DNA of 38,358 bases, taken from positions 1 through 38,358 of IMG/VR virus record IMGVR_UViG_3300036945_000296, one strand, 5' to 3'. Shown piece after piece: positions 7,055 through 33,982 of this stretch (the stretch's first letter is position 1; every line of letters begins with the position of its first letter). A program made the translations under genes and the position numbers. This stretch comes from a virus. The notes under the pieces were generated by a model. The model saw nothing but the letters and a program-made list of their open reading frames with translations. It had not been told where the DNA came from and made no database searches.

Positions 7055-7324
7055 ATGCGGGAGCCTAGATTCTACGAAGCTCCTAGTTGTGAAACAATCG
7101 GTGGAGACTTCTGGTTTCCAGATAATGACACACCCTTTTCATCTAGCCACGATGCTGCTTTTGCTAAGAGCATTTGTGGTAGATGTCCTCACCGCAGAGA
7201 GTGCGCTGAGTGGGGCATTGCAAACGAGGCTCACGGTATCTGGGGCGGTCTAACACCTAGACAACGCCAACAGATACGACGTGATCGTGGTACCAAAATT
7301 CATCAGGAGGAAGACGTTGCTTGA
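7055..7324 (+). CDS. WhiB-family iron-sulfur transcriptional regulator
   Basis: An 89-residue protein with the four WhiB cysteines (Cys12, then CxxC at 41 and 44, and Cys50) and the family signature GIWGG at 61-65, followed by a basic tail (TPRQRQQIRRDR). WhiB-like proteins hold a [4Fe-4S] cluster, bind the host primary sigma factor and alter promoter choice; they are restricted to actinobacteria and their phages. This is the strongest host clue in the window. Its last codons overlap the helicase gene, so it is part of the early operon and probably redirects transcription toward phage promoters or blocks superinfection. Confidence 0.93.
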   Translation: MREPRFYEAPSCETIGGDFWFPDNDTPFSSSHDAAFAKSICGRCPHRRECAEWGIANEAHGIWGGLTPRQRQQIRRDRGTKIHQEEDVA

Positions 7325-10207: not shown

Positions 10208-10616
10208 TGATGACAAGAAGCGAGTGGGACACGATGCTACAGACTTTGCAGCATATGGGCTTCCAAATCCTGAGTTACGATACATCAACGGAAGTAGTAT
10301 TGATAAAGCCGATAGCGACAAGATAGATTACAAGCACGTTAAGTTTGTTACTGATGTGTGGGAAGTACTAGATGGTGCAGGTAACCTGCTCATCAAGAAG
10401 CACAAGGACTACGGCCCAACTAACATTAGTCTCTCACCTGGTGGACCACTCAATGGTCTGCGTGTGCGTATGCACGACAAGACAGCACGCATCAATCACC
10501 TGATTGACAGCGGTGCGACACCTGAGAACGAATCATTACGAGATAGCTTTATTGATCTACTCAACTACAGTGCGATAGCACTGATGGTGCTAGATGGTAA
10601 GTGGCCTCGTGACTGA
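10200..10616 (+). CDS. Nmad1/DUF1599-like protein
   Basis: A 138-residue protein whose C-terminal two thirds match the pattern of the Nmad1/DUF1599 family: KKHKDYGPTN, then G-L-R-V-R-M-H-D-K-T-A-R, then E-S-L-R-D-S-F-I-D-L-L-N-Y-S and a terminal GKW. The acidic and basic residues in these helices fit an all-helical nucleotide-binding site. Comparative studies link Nmad1 to DNA base modification or nucleotide clean-up in phages. Start ATG 10200 has GGGGAG four bases upstream and overlaps the primase end. The exact reaction is not known from the sequence. Confidence 0.75.
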   Translation: MYDDDKKRVGHDATDFAAYGLPNPELRYINGSSIDKADSDKIDYKHVKFVTDVWEVLDGAGNLLIKKHKDYGPTNISLSPGGPLNGLRVRMHDKTARINHLIDSGATPENESLRDSFIDLLNYSAIALMVLDGKWPRD

Positions 10617-11241
10617 TCTGCACCCAGTTGCATTTGAGTTAGCCTCTTCAGTGGCTACGACTATCTATCGCAGGTACAAGAACTACGTAGAAAAAGATGA
10701 CATCAAGCAGGAGTGTGTTGCTTGGGCTATAGGTCGTAGTGCTTACATCAACGAGCAGATGTCAGAGCTTGATGATGACAAGCGTAAGCACAATGAAAGT
10801 CGTATCGCATTTCAGATGCGCCGTGCAGCAGAACGTTATGCTCGCAAGGAAAAGGCGTCTAAGTCTGGGTATCAGACAACTGATGAGGCGTACTACAAGA
10901 GCGCCGAACTTGGTCAGTTGCTTCCTTATGTTATTGCATCCGTTGTAGATGGCACAGTACTAGAGCAGATCCAACAGATGATCCAGGATGGACAACCTAA
11001 AGGTAAGTCGTCACCATCAGAAGGTGGCAACCTATTGGCTACCTTAATTGACATCAAGCGTTGCTTCTTAAAGCTAGACATAGAAGATCAGAACATACTA
11101 AGGCTACGTCACTTCGATAGCCTGACACTCAAAGACATAGCAGCGCAGATGGAATGCGCTGTATCTACAGCAGACCGCAGATGTCAGCACTCTTTACGCA
11201 GACTTATTGATCTTCTAGGAGGGCCTAGTCCGTGGCAATGA
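10609..11241 (+). CDS. Sigma-factor-like protein with C-terminal HTH
   Basis: A 210-residue protein from GTG 10609 (ATG 10594 is the alternative). The N-terminal half resembles sigma region 2 (YRRYKNYVEKDDIKQECVAW and a basic helix rich in Arg and Lys). The C-terminus is a sigma region 4-like helix-turn-helix: LRLRHFDSLTLKDIAAQ then VSTADRRCQHSLRRL. The linker (about 125-145) is disordered. It could direct host polymerase to phage promoters, working with or against WhiB. It overlaps both neighbours. Confidence 0.8.
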   Translation: MTDLHPVAFELASSVATTIYRRYKNYVEKDDIKQECVAWAIGRSAYINEQMSELDDDKRKHNESRIAFQMRRAAERYARKEKASKSGYQTTDEAYYKSAELGQLLPYVIASVVDGTVLEQIQQMIQDGQPKGKSSPSEGGNLLATLIDIKRCFLKLDIEDQNILRLRHFDSLTLKDIAAQMECAVSTADRRCQHSLRRLIDLLGGPSPWQ

Positions 11242-11621
11242 AAGAGATAGATCTATTTAACTTTCTCAAAGAGAGTTTGTATCCAGACCTTACCAAGTCG
11301 GAAGGTATCTACGATTCCTTTGACTGCATCAGTGAGCAGGCAGGTCACTACATAGAACTCAAGTGTCGCTATACACACTACGATACCTTGCTGATCGAAG
11401 AGATGAAGTATCGCAAGCTGATAACCCAAGCTGCTGAGCGAGATCTCATCCCGTTCTATATCAACTCGACACCGAAGGGTGTCTTTTCTTTTGACCTAAT
11501 GGATGTAGCAGAACCTGAATGGTCAGTGGGTTGGATGCCTGCGACAACAGAGTTCGCACGCAACCATAAGATGGAGAAGTTAGTAGGTTATCTACCTATT
11601 GAGGAGGCAGTACAACTATGA
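11232..11621 (+). CDS. Probable PD-(D/E)XK endonuclease
   Basis: A 129-residue protein. Asp30 (DSFDCIS), followed by YIELKCR, gives the D-xn-E-x-K core of restriction-type nucleases. Later features (EEMKYRKL and TTEFARNHKMEKLVGYL) match a family of small phage endonucleases by eye. GTG 11232 is preferred because AGGAGGG sits eight bases upstream. Neighbouring genes are regulatory or nucleic-acid related, consistent with DNA cleavage, but the catalytic assignment rests on one short motif. Confidence 0.65.
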   Translation: MAMKEIDLFNFLKESLYPDLTKSEGIYDSFDCISEQAGHYIELKCRYTHYDTLLIEEMKYRKLITQAAERDLIPFYINSTPKGVFSFDLMDVAEPEWSVGWMPATTEFARNHKMEKLVGYLPIEEAVQL

Positions 11622-12518: not shown

Positions 12519-12815
12519 TTACTTAGTACCACCCGCGTCTATCGGAGTGGCTCTTAGCGCGACACGCACTCCCTGAGTAGCGATGAGCAATGTATCTAAT
12601 GCCGTGGAGGATTTGTAATTCAGGTTGGCTACTGCGCTCTCTAAGGAGTTGAGCAACTCCGTAAGCTGACGAAGTTGGTTTGCCCTGAGAGTCTCTTGGG
12701 CGAGCAAGGTGGTCGAACCTGGACTCACGGGTCCAAAGGCTGACGAGACAGTTGATCTGACTGTTGTTGTAACCGAGTGCTCTTGCGTAACTAATCGTAA
12801 GTGCCTTGTTTTCAC
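12519..12815 (-). CDS. Possible gene nested in the transglycosylase gene, alternate frame
   Basis: A 98-residue frame lying almost wholly inside the transglycosylase gene, shifted by one base, starting at GTG 12815. GGAGGAG sits four bases before that GTG. The product has a plausible helical coiled-coil core (LRQLTELLNSLESAVANLNY) and no signal peptide. The homology-like pattern favours the other frame as the main gene, so this may be chance, but the strong ribosome site and sensible composition are unusual for a shadow frame. Confidence 0.3.
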   Translation of the reverse strand: MKTRHLRLVTQEHSVTTTVRSTVSSAFGPVSPGSTTLLAQETLRANQLRQLTELLNSLESAVANLNYKSSTALDTLLIATQGVRVALRATPIDAGGTK

Positions 12816-12960
12816 GCTTCTCCTCCATTGTTGCTTTCGTTCTCGCCTGCATCTGCGGTACTTCCGCTAAATGCAGGGACGGCGTTCGCCCGTGTATGTG
12901 TAGTAATAGTAAGACGGGTACTATCAGTAACGCCAATCCACTTTTTGCCTTCTTGCTCAT
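12523..12960 (-). CDS. Secreted lytic transglycosylase-like protein
   Basis: A 145-residue protein. Residues 1-22 are a signal or membrane anchor (MSKKAKSG followed by LALLIVPVLLLL). From 55 it has the SLT-like pattern: NCLVSLWTRES with the likely catalytic Glu79, then SSAYGVAQLL, ILHGIRYIAHRY and SHSDRRGWY. This is the compact SLT layout of actinobacterial resuscitation or aggregation-promoting enzymes. It would cleave the glycan chain of peptidoglycan outside the membrane. The ATG has AGGGAG upstream and overlaps the previous gene by 149 bases. It is on the opposite strand from the late lysis cassette, so timing may differ; a role in early cell-wall remodelling or superinfection control is possible. 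Confidence 0.75.
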   Translation of the reverse strand: MSKKAKSGLALLIVPVLLLLHIHGRTPSLHLAEVPQMQARTKATMEEKRENKALTISYARALGYNNSQINCLVSLWTRESRFDHLARPRDSQGKPTSSAYGVAQLLRERSSQPELQILHGIRYIAHRYSGSACRAKSHSDRRGWY

Positions 12961-13099
12961 CTAACTCCCTCTCTTCCACAAGCAACTGCTTGTATGTATC
13001 AGCGTATAAATGAGACAGGCGTACTAAAGCTCGGTCTCTTGCCCGTCTGTAATTACGGTAATGAATAGATTGCTTACCGCTTACCTCTCTACTCTCCAT
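12812..13099 (-). CDS. Conserved-looking basic helical protein
   Basis: A 95-residue protein: a very basic N-terminal helix (HYRNYRRARDRALVRLSHLY), then an acidic linker (LLVEERELDEQEGKKW) and a polar tail. The pattern resembles short actinophage proteins of unknown function that may bind DNA. It overlaps the transmembrane peptide before it by 11 bases and the transglycosylase after it by 149 bases. No named family. Confidence 0.7.
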   Translation of the reverse strand: MESREVSGKQSIHYRNYRRARDRALVRLSHLYADTYKQLLVEERELDEQEGKKWIGVTDSTRLTITTHTRANAVPAFSGSTADAGENESNNGGEA

Positions 13100-13172
13100 T
13101 GATCTTGTCCTCCCACACGATAAGTAGATAGACTACCACCATAACCGCAGCTAAACCTAGCCAGTAACTCAT
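13089..13172 (-). CDS. Single-pass membrane peptide (27 aa)
   Basis: A 27-residue frame with one hydrophobic segment (GLAAVMVVVYLLIVW) flanked by MSYWL and EDKINGE. The ATG overlaps the preceding stop (ATGA), and its end overlaps the next ATG, which is the coupling used throughout this block. It may be a small holin-like or anchoring peptide. Confidence 0.65.
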   Translation of the reverse strand: MSYWLGLAAVMVVVYLLIVWEDKINGE

Positions 13173-13429
13173 AGCCCTACCTCCCTTGCCTGTTGAATGA
13201 TCTCTGTTATGTCTATCGTTTGCCCTACTAAATGAGCGTCCTCTTCGTCACTATCCCACGCAGATACCAGTAGGCGTGAGCCTACAGGTGCAAGGTATAG
13301 CCATTGCATAGCAGACTTAACATCTCCTCCGCCCCAGCGTATCCGTTCTCCCCTACCTTCCGGCTCTACAATTTCATAGAACAGGATTAGGTCAGATTTA
13401 GGTGGGTGGATTGTGTATACGTTACTCAT
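13169..13429 (-). CDS. Hypothetical protein (86 aa)
   Basis: An 86-residue protein starting MSNVYTIHPPKSDLILFYEI with two predicted strands, a GGGDVKSAMQWLYLAP helix and an acidic C-terminal half. No cysteine pattern or membrane helix. The start codon is embedded in the end of the upstream gene (ATGAGTAA overlap). Not recognised. Confidence 0.75.
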   Translation of the reverse strand: MSNVYTIHPPKSDLILFYEIVEPEGRGERIRWGGGDVKSAMQWLYLAPVGSRLLVSAWDSDEEDAHLVGQTIDITEIIQQAREVGL

Positions 13430-13580
13430 CAGCCTCCTCCTCTAATCCAAACAGGCGAGCCATTGCGGAGTTCGCCCTCTCCAAGTTCTTAATAGCCAAA
13501 GCTATGTCCTCCTCTTGTATGTTCTTTTCTGCTTGATCTAGGCATAAGTTAAACTTAGCCCGTAGGTATTCCTCATTCAT
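13422..13580 (-). CDS. Small coiled-coil-like protein (52 aa)
   Basis: A 52-residue protein, nearly all helical (EEYLRAKFNLCLDQAEKN and AIKNLERANSAMARLF), with an acidic tail. AGGGAGA precedes the ATG. The gene overlaps both the upstream zinc-type gene and the downstream gene by eight bases. Confidence 0.75.
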   Translation of the reverse strand: MNEEYLRAKFNLCLDQAEKNIQEEDIALAIKNLERANSAMARLFGLEEEADE

Positions 13581-13731
13581 TGCTATCTCCCTCGCACTCG
13601 CACTTTAGTTCATACATACCGCATACAGAACAGATACCACCACTATCTAACAGGCAGTATTTAGTCCCTGTTATGTCTTCGATCATACTTTCATCATCAA
13701 AATCACCTAAGCAAACCATACAAGTACTCAT
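13573..13731 (-). CDS. Small Cys-rich zinc-ribbon protein (52 aa)
   Basis: A 52-residue protein with CMVC near the N-terminus, then CSVC and a CEC pair near the end. The first two pairs are separated by about 27 residues, the spacing of a zinc ribbon. AGGAGGCTGGCGA precedes the ATG. Role unknown. Confidence 0.75.
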   Translation of the reverse strand: MSTCMVCLGDFDDESMIEDITGTKYCLLDSGGICSVCGMYELKCECEGDSNE

Positions 13732-13898
13732 TCGCCAGCCTCCTCTAAATCATAGAAGTACTCTACCCTAGAGTCTTTGTCTAACTCTCTCATTAGATCT
13801 CTTCGCGTGATAGCGAAAGCTCGCGCCTCGCCCTCACTCTCAAACTCATCCACTAGCCGATAAACTACTTTCGACACGGTTACCTCATAGTGTTTCAT
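13728..13898 (-). CDS. Small hypothetical protein (56 aa)
   Basis: A 56-residue alpha/beta protein (MKHYEVTVSKVVYRLVDEF, then a long charged helix). Its TGA overlaps the next ATG (ATGA). GGGTGAGG stands upstream of the ATG. Not recognised. Confidence 0.75.
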   Translation of the reverse strand: MKHYEVTVSKVVYRLVDEFESEGEARAFAITRRDLMRELDKDSRVEYFYDLEEAGE

Positions 13899-13902
13899 TA
13901 CC

Positions 13903-14073
13903 TCACCCTCTCTCTATCTTGTAATCTAATCGGGCGCAAGACTCCATAAAGTTAGCCTTAGCCTCCTCTACCGTGTAGCCGTAAAAGGTGGCGCTCTCTA
14001 ACCACTTTACGCCTTGCCAGTTCACCAGTGCGCTCACTACTAGAGCGCCCGCGTATGTCTTCTCTACTGTCAT
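13903..14073 (-). CDS. Small hypothetical protein (56 aa)
   Basis: A 56-residue protein beginning MTVEKTYAGALVVSALVNWQ, with a beta-rich first half and a helix at the end (EEAKANFMESCARLD). I use ATG 14073, which shares TGATG with the upstream stop and has GGAGG seven bases upstream, in preference to the longer start at 14091. Confidence 0.75.
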   Translation of the reverse strand: MTVEKTYAGALVVSALVNWQGVKWLESATFYGYTVEEAKANFMESCARLDYKIERG

Positions 14074-14213
14074 CACGCTACCTCCACCCATAGGCCTTGC
14101 TCACGGTAGAGCTTGATTAGTCTCTTAACCGCTGCAGGGGTGAGATCGCACTCACCCACTGTCTCGCGTGTATAGCTATCTACTAAGCGCACGTGCTCTT
14201 TCTTTCTGCTCAT
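14073..14213 (-). CDS. Small hypothetical protein (46 aa)
   Basis: A 46-residue protein, MSRKKEHVRLVDSYTRET followed by a C-terminal helix (LTPAAVKRLIKLYREQGLW) reminiscent of a short helix-turn-helix half. It is coupled to the next gene by TGATG. AAAGGG stands upstream of the ATG. Confidence 0.7.
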   Translation of the reverse strand: MSRKKEHVRLVDSYTRETVGECDLTPAAVKRLIKLYREQGLWVEVA

Positions 14214-14290
14214 AATCTAACCCTTTCTAAGATCCGGCTAGGTACCGGCCCCCGCCCTCTCACGCCTAAGCTAGAGAGAGCGAGAGTCAC

Positions 14291-14464
14291 CTACCTAGTG
14301 AAAGTTTCAGCGTAGCAATTGGCCATAGTGTCGAAGCAATAGCGCCCGCCGTACGGGGTAGGCACATACCACACCTGCCCGCTCACCCATACGAGAGCTG
14401 CAACTAATAAGAGAGCGGGTAGGATTACTAACACGATCCACCCGCGACGGGTTAATTTATTCAC
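14291..14464 (-). CDS. Small membrane protein (57 aa), GTG start
   Basis: A 57-residue protein with a basic N-terminus (NKLTRRGW), one membrane helix (IVLVILPALLLVAALVWV) and an outer tail containing two cysteines (GRYCFDTMANCYAE) that may pair. The GTG start overlaps the upstream stop (GTGA). Small secreted-tail membrane proteins of this type could be exclusion or lysis-timing factors. Confidence 0.7.
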   Translation of the reverse strand: MNKLTRRGWIVLVILPALLLVAALVWVSGQVWYVPTPYGGRYCFDTMANCYAETFTR

Positions 14465-14637
14465 GCGCTCACCCTATCCCCGGCCATAAGCTGCGCGAAC
14501 TTATCAGCTCCCGCTTGATCTCCCACGCTCTCGCATAGCTGCATAGCGTGAAGAGCGCATAGGTAGCGCGGTACTAGATAGCCGGACACGGTAACGCGGG
14601 CCATATTCTGGCACTTATCGCATTTATCAATAGTCAT
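14461..14637 (-). CDS. Small CxxC/CxxH protein (58 aa)
   Basis: A 58-residue protein with CDKC at 6-9 and C-A-L-H about 18 residues later, a four-ligand zinc-binding set. The start shares TAATG with the preceding stop. Role unknown; possibly a regulatory zinc finger. Confidence 0.75.
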   Translation of the reverse strand: MTIDKCDKCQNMARVTVSGYLVPRYLCALHAMQLCESVGDQAGADKFAQLMAGDRVSA

Positions 14638-15068
14638 TACTCTAGTCCCTCCACGATAGAGCAGGCGTATTGATAAGCTGGCTCCGTGTCATACACCGGA
14701 AGAGTCGCGGTATCGCCCCAATCGCTGAAGCGGTAAGTCACTTTAAGCACGCAGCTGCCGACGTGCTTGATCTCTAAGTAAGAGCTAGGACCGCCCCACG
14801 ATAGGCAGACAGTGGTAAGAGAGTAGGTGTCAATAGATAGCGCCGGGTCATCGTGGTATTCATCGCCGTCGGGGTCATTCATTAGCTTAGCTAAGTCCTC
14901 GTTGAGTGAAGCTAGTGAGTCCTTAATTCTACCCTTGCAAGTCTTAGACTCTTGAGCCTTGATCGCTGCCTTGAATTGCTCTATGGCGCTAGTCGTACAG
15001 TTAGGGCAGAAAGTAGCCTCACCGGTATAATCGCAAAAGTTGCACTTATTGAGCGTGATTTCATTCAT
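14637..15068 (-). CDS. Zinc-ribbon protein (143 aa), first gene of the leftward operon
   Basis: A 143-residue protein with an N-terminal zinc ribbon (C9 x2 C12 and C21 x2 C24, as CNFC and CPNC), a central helical region with an acidic linker (DPDGDEYHDDP) and a C-terminal beta domain (SSYLEIKHVGSCVLKVTYRF). AAGGG is upstream of the ATG. As the first leftward gene it could encode a regulator acting on the repeat-rich control region beside it. No family recognised. Confidence 0.75.
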   Translation of the reverse strand: MNEITLNKCNFCDYTGEATFCPNCTTSAIEQFKAAIKAQESKTCKGRIKDSLASLNEDLAKLMNDPDGDEYHDDPALSIDTYSLTTVCLSWGGPSSYLEIKHVGSCVLKVTYRFSDWGDTATLPVYDTEPAYQYACSIVEGLE

Positions 15069-15196
15069 TTTTAACCCTTATCCGTAGAGCTTGATTAGGT
15101 AAGTGAGTAGCTCTACAGGGAGAAACTTACAGGACTATGCCGTAGATATGCAACTCTAAAGAGCTATCTAGTGCAATTTATTTAGTGAATCGGATC

Positions 15197-15232
15197 ACAT
15201 AACAAGGTAGACAATAAGGGCGCAACTGTCTA
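15197..15232 (-). repeat. 36 bp two-copy element, copy 1 (palindromic operator-like)
   Basis: Contains TAGACA, 13 bases, TGTCTA (15208-15232). Read leftward the likeness to copy 2 extends past the palindrome (TGTCTACC-x-TGTT), giving 26 matches in 36 positions by eye. Lies about 130 bp upstream of the leftward operon start. Confidence 0.75.
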
Positions 15233-15279
15233 ATGGTTAGCGGGTAAGGCGTTAGCCGATTAGGTAGCTAGATCGCTAG

Positions 15280-15377
15280 AGCTGCAGCGGTAAGAGCTGC
15301 AGTATCGGGTGAGCTATCGGGTGAGAGCTAGGCGGTTAGTAGCTGCAAGGTGAGAGAGCTGCAAGGTTAGGCGGTTA
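15280..15377 (+). repeat. Cluster of short direct repeats
   Basis: AGCTGCAG occurs at 15280 and 15295; TATCGGGTGAG at 15303 and 15315; AGCTGCAAGG at 15341 and 15357; TAGGCGGTTA at 15329 and 15368. Such iteron-like clustering is typical of origins and regulatory sites. Confidence 0.75.
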
Positions 15378-15389
15378 CTTAATCTTAAA

Positions 15390-15416
15390 GGGTTAAGGGT
15401 TAGGGTGTGCCGGGGG
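15390..15416 (+). other. G-quadruplex-type motif
   Basis: Four G-runs (15390-15392, 15397-15399, 15403-15405 and 15412-15416) with loops TTAA, TTA and TGTGCC fit the standard G3+N1-7 rule. More G-runs follow at 15479-15490 (GGGGGGTGGGGG). Confidence 0.65.
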
Positions 15417-15439
15417 TAGAGTCTGCCCGTATCTTTACA

Positions 15440-15475
15440 GTAAAACACGGTAGACAGTTAGGCCCGGACTGTCTA
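15440..15475 (-). repeat. 36 bp two-copy element, copy 2 (palindromic operator-like)
   Basis: TAGACAGT at 15451 and ACTGTCTA at 15468-15475 form a perfect 8 bp inverted repeat. The TAGACA/TGTCTA arms are again 13 bases apart, as in copy 1, and the flank on the leftward side is also similar. Confidence 0.75.
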
Positions 15476-15590
15476 GCCGGGGGGTGGGGGTCACCGGCCG
15501 GACGGCTCACGCGTACCCGGGGTTTGTGAATCCGGGCCGGGGTGTGTACATACTCCCCAAATAAATATTTCGACTAAAGTGAGATCCCAA

Positions 15591-15620
15591 TTGTGGCTCT
15601 GACCAGCGGTTTTATATACT
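15591..15620 (+). promoter_or_regulatory. Candidate sigma-70-type promoter of the late operon/leader RNA
   Basis: TTGTGG (15591-15596), 18 bases, TATACT (15615-15620). The start would fall near 15627, directly before the hairpin chain. There is no better candidate upstream of the terminase gene. Confidence 0.5.
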
Positions 15621-15626
15621 GTGACC

Positions 15627-15815
15627 AACGCCACACCGCGAAAGCGGGAAATGCTCTAAATTTCCTGCCTTATATATAGTAAGGGAGCAAAGCGGGGAGC
15701 ACTGGCTTTGCGACCTCGGTTGGCCTCTTGCGAGGCCCCTAGGCCGAGTACTAACTTACCCCTCAGTTCGCTGAACTCCTTCGGGCGCTAAGCCCGATGC
15801 TAGCGGCGCTTTTAG
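15627..15815 (+). ncRNA. Putative structured RNA/leader (hairpin chain)
   Basis: Five successive hairpins: CCGC-GAAA-GCGG (15636-15647); GCAAAGC/GCTTTGC (15687-15711); a two-part stem CTCGG plus GGCCTC-TTGC-GAGGCC plus CCGAG (15715-15748); TCAG-TTCG-CTGA (15763-15774); TCGGGC/GCCCGA (15781-15797). GCGGGAAAT can alternatively pair with ATTTCCTGC (15644-15668), excluding the first hairpin. A weak T-run (15809-15813) follows a GC-rich stretch. No frame of note is present. It could be a small RNA or the leader of the terminase message. Confidence 0.4.
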
Positions 15816-15828
15816 TTGGGATAGTTAT

Positions 15829-15867
15829 ATCTAACCAGGTGTTAGATGACATTCCCGAACCAGGTGT
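15829..15867 (+). repeat. Palindrome and direct repeats upstream of terminase
   Basis: ATCTAAC-CAGGT-GTTAGAT is a perfect 7 bp inverted repeat (15829-15847). AACCAGGTGT occurs at 15833 and again at 15858, 25 bases apart. Candidate operator or packaging-initiation site. Confidence 0.55.
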
Positions 15868-15914
15868 AAATCTGATTCCGGCCGATTTCAAAAAATTTTT
15901 TTAAGGGAGAATAC

Positions 15915-17774
15915 GTGGCAGAGAACTCGGCTGACATAGCCAAGCGTATTATCCTAAACGCTGTAGCTGAAGGTATGACCATTGAGCAGGCCACGGCCTC
16001 TGCCGGTAAGTCCATTAAGACTTACGAGTACTACCGTCGCACAGACAAGGTCTTTGCAGACAAGGTAGACCGAACCCGCCTGGGCTTAAAGGACAAGTCC
16101 TTCGCATCAGGTGATGTACACGATATAGACTTTACTGAGTTCCGTCAGAAGTTCCTACACTCTAGGACCTTTGACCACCAGAAGAACATTGTAGATGTGA
16201 TCGAGGGCCGTGAACCAGGTTGGCTTCACCCTTCTATGAAGTATGAAAAGGGTCTGGCTAATAACCGTATCCTTGTCAACATTCCGCCCAACCACGCCAA
16301 GTCAATGACTATTACCGTTGACTACGTCACCTGGCAGGTAGCACGCAATCCGAACTTCCGTGTTCTGATTGTGTCCCAGACCCAGCGACTAGCAGCTGAC
16401 TTTCTCTACGCCATCAAGCAAAGACTGACACATCCTAATTATGAAGCATTGCAACAGGCATATGCTGCTGGCGTAGGGTTTAACTCTAAGACCGCTTCCT
16501 GGCAAGCAACCCGCGTCACCTTCGGTGATGAGCTTCGTGAGTCTAGCGAAAAAGATCCAAACATCGAAGCCGTAGGTATCGGTGGTCAGATCTACGGTAA
16601 GCGTGCAGATATGATTATTGTAGATGACGCGGTCACCCTATCTAACGCCAATGACTTTGAGCGTCAGATCAAGTGGTTAACCCAGGACGTACGTTCTCGT
16701 CTTAACCCAACAGGTAAACTTATTATTATCGGAACTCGCGTAGCATCCGTGGATTTATACCGCGAGCTTCGCTCAGAGGATAGATACCCAGGTGGATTAG
16801 TCCCTTGGACCTATCTTGCTATGCCAGCACTACTCGAGGCAGATGAGGACCCAGACAACTGGGTTACCTTGTGGCCTAAGTCAGATGCTCCATTTGATGG
16901 ACAAGAAGAATCTGATAAAGATGAGAACGGCCTATACCCACGCTGGTCTGGTCGTAACCTTTACAACGAACGCCAAGCGATGGACACATCCACTTGGGCA
17001 CTTGTCTATCAACAGCAAGATGTTTCTGAAAACTCAGCTTTCGATCCCGTGTGCGTACGTGGTTCTATTGACGGTATGCGTAAAGCAGGTCCATTAGTTG
17101 CAGGTAACCCTGGCCACCCACGTGACCTTGGTGGTTACTCCATCATCTGCGGTCTTGACCCAGCGATGATTGGTGATACCGCAGCTATTTGTTATGCGGT
17201 AGATCGCAATACCAACAAGAGGTACATCGTAGATGCTATTAAGATTACTAGACCGTCTCCTGCCGATATTCGTGACCTTATATTTAATTGGACTTCCCTA
17301 TACGGCCCGTCTGAGTGGATTGTTGAACGTAATGCGTTCCAGTCTTTCCTTACACAAGATGAAGGAATCCGTCAGCACTTGGCATCACGCGGAGTGCTAC
17401 TGCGGGAACACCATACAGGTAACAACAAGTGGGACGCAGGCTTTGGTGTTGCGTCAATGTCAACTTTGTTCGGCACCAAGCAACACGACGGTAAACACCA
17501 CCGCGACAATCTTATCCATCTTCCATCAGATCAGACGGAAAATGTCAAGGCGTTAATCGAGCAGTTGATTACCTGGACACCTACTACTAAGGGCAAGACT
17601 GACTTAGTAATGGCGCTCTGGTTCTGCGAGATCCGAGCACGTGAGATGCTCAACTATGGTCAGTACAACTCACACCATCTGAAGAATCCGTTTTTAACTG
17701 GCGCTGAAAAGCGTAAGCGATTAGTAGTAAACATTGACCAGTTATTAGCAGACCAAAACAAAACATTCATCTAA
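15915..17774 (+). CDS. terL: Large terminase with N-terminal HTH-like segment
   Basis: A 619-residue packaging motor. Walker A is IPPNHAKS (123-130), Walker B is MIIVDD (233-238) and the nuclease acidic motif is GLDPAMIGDT near 414. The first 55 residues (IILNAVAEGMTIEQATASAG, then YEYYRRTDKVF) form a helix-turn-helix like those of small terminases, so a DNA-recognition part may be fused to the motor; no separate small terminase is seen. The start GTG 15915 has AAGGGAGA upstream. It is the first late gene after the structured leader. Confidence 0.92.
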   Translation: MAENSADIAKRIILNAVAEGMTIEQATASAGKSIKTYEYYRRTDKVFADKVDRTRLGLKDKSFASGDVHDIDFTEFRQKFLHSRTFDHQKNIVDVIEGREPGWLHPSMKYEKGLANNRILVNIPPNHAKSMTITVDYVTWQVARNPNFRVLIVSQTQRLAADFLYAIKQRLTHPNYEALQQAYAAGVGFNSKTASWQATRVTFGDELRESSEKDPNIEAVGIGGQIYGKRADMIIVDDAVTLSNANDFERQIKWLTQDVRSRLNPTGKLIIIGTRVASVDLYRELRSEDRYPGGLVPWTYLAMPALLEADEDPDNWVTLWPKSDAPFDGQEESDKDENGLYPRWSGRNLYNERQAMDTSTWALVYQQQDVSENSAFDPVCVRGSIDGMRKAGPLVAGNPGHPRDLGGYSIICGLDPAMIGDTAAICYAVDRNTNKRYIVDAIKITRPSPADIRDLIFNWTSLYGPSEWIVERNAFQSFLTQDEGIRQHLASRGVLLREHHTGNNKWDAGFGVASMSTLFGTKQHDGKHHRDNLIHLPSDQTENVKALIEQLITWTPTTKGKTDLVMALWFCEIRAREMLNYGQYNSHHLKNPFLTGAEKRKRLVVNIDQLLADQNKTFI

Positions 17775-20096: not shown

Positions 20097-20225
20097 ATGA
20101 ACAAGGGATCACAGGCAAAGGCTTCAGTACAACCAATCAAGGTTGACACTAAGGCTCCAAAGCCAAAGGGCGGCAAGGTTGACTTCGGTTATGCCGGAAC
20201 AGCTCGCAAAGGCAAGAAGGCTTAA
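20097..20225 (+). CDS. Small basic Lys/Gly-rich protein (42 aa)
   Basis: A 42-residue protein, Lys-rich at about one in four residues (SQAKASVQPIKVDTKAPKPK, ending KGKKA). A perfect AAGGAGG lies eight bases before the ATG. Like several other miniproteins in the late block it may be a virion DNA-packaged basic peptide. Confidence 0.75.
   Translation: MNKGSQAKASVQPIKVDTKAPKPKGGKVDFGYAGTARKGKKA

Positions 20226-32667: not shown

Positions 32668-33982
<1,315 letters not shown>

Follow-up and report, generated by a model that had tools for sequence, protein, structure and literature searches.

What kind of factor might read a palindrome that stands twice, with the same arms and the same spacing, between the leftward genes and the terminase gene of a freshwater phage? 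The DNA considered here is IMG/VR virus record IMGVR_UViG_3300036945_000296, positions 1 to 38,358, and by the window we mean this whole stretch of 38,358 nt. A preliminary description had seen in the two copies either operators of a dimeric regulator or sites for a replication initiator, and had pointed to the product of the neighboring gene, 14637-15068, as a possible binder. Freshwater Nanopelagicales and similar actinobacteria have abundant phages, barely any of them in culture, and we found no description of the control regions of such phages in the literature searched. Phage control regions are already known to contain palindromic operators and initiator sites. Weighing the findings set out below, we consider the palindrome to be, on balance, probably a specific site for a putative dimeric DNA-binding protein acting on the divergent promoters of a central control region.

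The palindrome and the control region around it

Both copies lie inside an 846-base gene-free stretch that separates the leftward genes, which end at 15068, from the terminase gene; the absence of genes claimed for this region was borne out, with no convincing gene from 15069 to 15914. The features in and around it are as follows.

14637 to 15068, minus strand: first leftward gene, 143 aa, of no known family
15124 to 15153, minus strand: leftward promoter TTGCAT-N18-TAAGTT, predicted by eye from motifs common to relatives
15201 to 15204, plus strand: conserved AACA to the left of copy 1, TGTT when read on the minus strand, with N3 between it and the left arm
15208 to 15232, plus strand: palindrome copy 1, TAGACAATAAGGGCGCAACTGTCTA, by pattern match, with homologous copies in relatives
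15414 to 15428, plus strand: terminator-like hairpin immediately 5' of copy 2
15444 to 15447, plus strand: conserved AACA flank of copy 2
15451 to 15475, plus strand: palindrome copy 2, TAGACAGTTAGGCCCGGACTGTCTA, by pattern match, in a slot filled by DnaA boxes in other relatives
15479 to 15490, plus strand: G-run GGGGGGTGGGGG, adjoining copy 2 on its 3' side
15524 to 15554, plus strand: predicted rightward promoter, read by eye, with the -10 CATACT at 15549-15554 and the -35 in the TTGTGAAT stretch at 15524
15563 to 15580, plus strand: conserved anchor AAATATTTCGACTAAAGT, the start of the conserved terminase leader and our reference for slot positions
15915 to 17774, plus strand: terminase large subunit gene (phrog_38), downstream of the control region

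The coordinates of the two copies, their perfect arms and the 13-nt spacer of TAGACA-N13-TGTCTA all proved correct on re-checking, and the identity between the two 36-bp segments, previously counted by eye, came out at exactly 26 of 36 positions when recomputed. A pattern search of the 38,358-nt record returned exactly two copies even with two mismatches allowed, a setting at which about 2.5 matches per record are expected by chance, and both of the matches found are perfect; the many random copies genome-wide that would have spoken against a specific element were looked for and are not there. In none of 150 Markov-simulated windows of the same composition did a 6-nt inverted repeat recur within 300 bp with its spacer length (4-20) unchanged. 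The real window holds two pairs of this kind, the TAGACA palindrome and TGGTCC-N4 at 33703/33802, the latter within a coding gene. Because AACA-N3 precedes TAGACA on the left of both copies, the two point the same way, and the element is a palindrome plus one additional conserved side, not fully symmetric.

Both promoters are predictions, read by eye from motifs conserved in relatives, and a generic promoter scan of the control region called neither of them at its threshold. The rightward -10, CATACT here, reads TATACT in many relatives. Copy 2 starts 98 bp 5' of this -10, and the corresponding distance is 93-102 bp in 30 of the 34 loci with copy 2, the outliers being 77 and 119-121. Copy 1 precedes the predicted leftward start by about 100 bp, and its distance to the leftward promoter differs widely between relatives. 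Helical phasing of copy 2 relative to the -10 is weak (R 0.40 at 10.5 bp), and that of copy 1 relative to copy 2 gives no signal at 10.5 bp, with R 0.48 at 11 bp, a value uncorrected for the several periods tried. A dimeric protein reading the palindrome would bind both copies; copy 2 would then let it act on the rightward promoter, which serves the terminase and structural genes, and copy 1 on the leftward promoter.

The leader of about 350 nt (15549-15914) that precedes the terminase gene is itself strongly conserved in relatives and contains many inverted repeats, with a terminator-like hairpin at 15644-15668. It has no match in Rfam; it may form a structured leader RNA or else include the packaging site.

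Conservation of the element among related phages

The search of related phage genomes that the preliminary description had suggested showed the element to be widespread and concentrated upstream of the terminase. A terminase protein search yielded at least 80 loci, some of whose contigs overlap or repeat. In the 75.6 kb of terminase-upstream DNA of these loci and the window, we counted 18 exact and 12 one-mismatch copies, and in the remaining 639 kb of the same loci no exact and three one-mismatch copies. An enlarged set of 111 upstream regions, with duplicates removed and pattern-selected loci added, held 79 exact and 22 one-mismatch copies with spacer 13, and two exact and 15 one-mismatch copies with spacer 14; elsewhere between spacers 6 and 21, spacer 19 had ten one-mismatch copies and all others at most three. 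When all six-base inverted repeats with spacers of 0-24 were ranked in 54 unselected regions, TAGACA-13 came first, with 12 loci. A chance origin is ruled out by the simulations, the enrichment upstream of the terminase and this top rank. The palindrome is nevertheless not universal, being present within one mismatch in 29 of 56 unselected relatives and absent from about half. Two related contigs (G012 at 20131 and G014 at 155) carry an extra exact copy that overlaps a gene's end together with the start of the gene after it; we take this copy as coincidence.

The sequence of the spacer varies, while its length (13, sometimes 14) and the arms stay constant. One-mismatch copies deviate mostly at arm position 2 in either arm, the left one then reading TGGACA or TTGACA and the right one TGTCCA or TGTCAA, and such toleration of the same substitution on both arms fits a symmetric dimer reading each arm alike. 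Judged from these comparisons, the element is a conserved, selected and putatively protein-binding site. The same data bear on whether the palindrome acts instead at the RNA level, as a hairpin or terminator of a transcript. Copy 2 would fold to -9.8 kcal/mol, but copy 1 on the plus strand folds weakly (-3.3 kcal/mol, z -0.84), a T run is absent 3' of the palindrome, and the palindrome has no match in Rfam. The arms, moreover, are kept in sequence and not just in pairing, and the compensatory changes looked for as the mark of a stem were not found, one compensated variant standing against 34 one-sided changes. We consider a role in the folded transcript extremely unlikely.

The one-base tolerance in spacer length would also suit a promoter read by the sigma factor that the phage itself encodes (gene 10594-11241), with the arms serving as -35 and -10 and their symmetry perhaps allowing firing both ways. 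The sigma factor gene is found in the cultured phage E7, described below, and in all element-bearing long contigs that cover the early region, and the minus strand of copy 1 reads TAGACA-N17-TACCTT, resembling a sigma-70 promoter. The perfect complementarity of the arms and the same substitution tolerated on both would, however, be unexpected for a -35/-10 pair; the sigma gene is present also in phages that lack the palindrome (G002, G009), and ordinary promoters seem to adjoin it. We regard the sigma-factor promoter as unlikely, and continue with the dimer site as the preferred reading.

Planktophila phages LanE43-AprE7 and -AprF5 (E7 and F5), according to PMC10202952 the first Nanopelagicales phages to be cultured, have terminases 47% identical to that of the window, and resemble the window phage in having WhiB, a sigma factor and a similar gene order. 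In E7 a single exact palindrome stands 459 bp 5' of the terminase match, and the rest of the E7 genome has none within one mismatch; the window, by comparison, has two copies. The stretch of F5 that was read contains none within one mismatch. The main text of the report on these phages (PMC10202952) does not describe such an element. In a group with about 44-48% terminase identity, represented by pattern-selected loci, the palindrome is again near the terminase, often as two copies 48-49 bp apart, and Streptomyces phage Manuel (terminase 43%) has no copy upstream of its terminase. The window DNA has no near match among annotated phages, and a search of bacterial genomes for relatives of its terminase found none.

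Another, separate phage family has a terminase of its own, through which it was fetched without use of the pattern; it has a similar N13/N14 palindrome between its terminase and portal genes, in the exact form in 40 of the 52 members whose junction was located and with spacer 14 in some others. In L349 around 8152 (G018 28152) and in L383-L450 it reads TTAGACA-N13/14-TGTCTAA and stands between the terminase stop and the portal start. In this family the right arm has the position of a -35: TACAAT follows 17 bp further and the ATG 8 bp beyond it, a spacing that suggests a leaderless promoter in which the right arm is a plausible -35.

A slot shared with DnaA boxes

The slot that holds copy 2 in the window holds DnaA boxes in other relatives, often as TTATCCACA-N3-TTATCCACA. 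Among 93 loci, 34 have the palindrome in the slot, 34 have DnaA boxes, 25 have neither and none has both; for 50 unselected loci the numbers are 13, 15, 22 and 0 (Fisher p 0.005). DnaA boxes were counted with one mismatch allowed, and these exclusivity tests ignore ancestry. The window's control region contains no DnaA box and no iteron array. Copy 1 accompanies either content of the slot, being present at 26 loci with DnaA boxes and 21 with the palindrome. A similar G-run occupies the equivalent place in several relatives whose slot contains DnaA boxes or neither type of site.

The main rival to transcriptional control takes these facts to mean that the region is the phage replication origin, where the palindrome would be a putative initiator or helicase-loader site replacing host DnaA in the same slot. 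Such an origin would explain well why copy 2 and DnaA boxes are exchanged and never occur together; the phage encodes a helicase and a primase with no recognized initiator, and the slot is followed by the G-run and an AT-rich stretch. Against this, copy 1, which so often coexists with DnaA boxes in the slot, is left without explanation, more than a quarter of the loci carry neither type of site there, and the window offers two palindromes only, with no array of iterons. GC skew tracks gene direction, a turning point specific to the control region not being seen, and DnaA can also serve as a transcription factor. We judge transcriptional control the likelier role, while the control region is possibly part of a replication origin; the origin as the full explanation of the palindrome is possible, if doubtful.

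Part of this mutual exclusion stems from exchange of modules. L003 (terminase 99% identical), L005 and L006 (both 96%), the closest terminase relatives among the matches listed, all lack the palindrome. The preliminary description had held that absence of the element from close relatives with the flanking genes retained would count against it. Absence is what these three relatives display, but the left flank is not retained in L003, whose DNA similarity to the window begins at 15514, everything leftward, the slot included, being different; the entire module has thus been replaced, rather than the element alone lost. The same three phages bear on the idea that the palindrome is part of a cos/pac packaging site read by the terminase, which would fit the fact that, in the main family as well as in the 44-48% group and in E7, it stands directly 5' of the terminase gene. 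Terminases 96-99% identical to the window's do without any copy, so the enzyme does not need the palindrome, and a packaging function leaves the swap with DnaA boxes unexplained. We hold this reading to be very unlikely.

The control regions of the relatives contain further repeats. RTAAC-N6-RTAAC direct repeats (GGTAACGATTAGGTAACGATT), with an 11-bp period, occur near the leftward promoter in 21 of 54 unselected loci (e.g. L084, L131, L018), at a density of 34 per 100 kb in upstream regions vs 2 per 100 kb elsewhere; the window has none and host genomes show no clear excess. With their 11-bp period they resemble in form the sites of regulators of the OmpR type, for example GlnR or MtrA. Among further inverted repeats, all of constant spacer, AAGTTAC-N16-GTAACTT is found in eight and GTTGAA-N2-TTCAAC in seven of 54 unselected loci, and TGTCGA-N4-TCGACA in 12 of 109 loci; L005, L006, L018, L060 and L067 provide examples. 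Taken as a whole, the control region has the look of a hub for putative protein sites that can be exchanged.

Candidate binders and known systems

If the palindrome is a dimer site, which protein binds it? As a general binder the product of 14637-15068 is unlikely, because the palindrome is widespread and relatives of this protein are few in comparison, a search returning five; no left-module gene tracks the element. The candidate binder of the preliminary description thus finds no support; its more general proposal does, as the element behaves like a dimeric DNA-binding site (spacer fixed in length and variable in sequence, equal tolerance in the two arms) and regulator and initiator remain the two leading roles. 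Domain searches of the early and leftward genes recognized two regulators, a WhiB-like protein (7055-7324) and the sigma factor, in addition to the helicase and the primase. Neither gene presence and absence across 23 long contigs, the window included, nor the left modules of 77 loci revealed a gene that tracks the palindrome. No integrase, which an attachment site would call for, was found among about 40 ORFs scanned. Ten Nanopelagicales genomes, including that of E7's host LanE-43 (the host of the window phage may differ), contained one exact site, no excess over control, and a recurrent near-match there falls inside conserved coding sequence resembling an RNA pseudouridine synthase; a host regulator with a regulon is rejected on these grounds. 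Since no gene tracks the palindrome and host genomes show no excess, we favor as binder a protein of the phage core or perhaps a host protein with very few chromosomal sites.

Two observations on the phage's own proteins are added here. The leftward module 12812-15068, which adjoins a lysozyme-like gene (12523-12960), encodes small proteins without annotation, several of which have paired cysteines in the manner of zinc knuckles, and much of it is exchanged between close relatives. The 129-aa protein of 11232-11621 is conserved to phage E7 (50%) and has no confident Pfam match; its ELKC motif looks like a PD-(D/E)XK nuclease core.

Of the systems described before, the closest in its arms is the operator of McbR, a TetR-family regulator of Corynebacterium glutamicum, TAGAC-N6-GTCTA (PMC9210681). 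It shares with the palindrome identical five-base arms, TAGAC/GTCTA, an actinobacterial setting and the form of a dimer site, but its spacer is 6 where that between the same five-base arms of the palindrome is 15. Given this spacing, and since 15 of these phage records yielded no TetR domain, we reject identity with an McbR/TetR operator.

Other comparisons concern phages and origins. The operators and stoperators of mycobacteriophages such as L5 and Bxb1 are short, asymmetric and genome-scattered, and have a known repressor. They and the palindrome are alike as phage-borne regulator sites, putative in our case, near divergent actinophage promoters; the palindrome differs in being 25 bp long and in having its two copies together at one place, and a repressor was not found. 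DnaA-box origins are known as bacterial oriC and from some plasmids. The relatives of the window phage with tandem boxes exactly in copy 2's slot resemble them, and the window phage does not, the palindrome being neither a DnaA box nor an iteron array. A literature search for the palindrome arms returned nothing relevant, and in the open-licence literature searched we found no description of the motif or of its either/or relation with DnaA boxes.

For the preferred reading, a site for a dimeric protein controlling the flanking promoters, we count the enrichment upstream of the terminase, the top rank among inverted repeats, the spacer of 13/14, the symmetric mismatches, the distance of copy 2, the copy in E7 and the similar palindrome in a separate family. 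The palindrome has what an operator should have in dyad symmetry, conserved arms and constant spacing; a cognate regulator was not among the findings. Counted against the reading are the lack of a tracking gene and of a TetR domain, the absence of the element from about half of the unselected relatives, the variable distance of copy 1, and the status of the promoters as predictions that the generic scan did not call.

We tentatively propose, from the comparison of these genomes, that in freshwater actinophages a control or origin slot might be filled by host DnaA boxes or, alternatively, by the site of a so far undescribed dimeric factor, and that close relatives may have swapped the mode of starting replication or late transcription by the exchange of one module. 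A conserved site with a defined slot, present also in cultured E7, is a direct handle for fishing out the binding protein, and its either/or relation with DnaA boxes makes the start of replication or late transcription in these phages testable. The importance of the finding would rise if the slot were an origin with interchangeable initiators.
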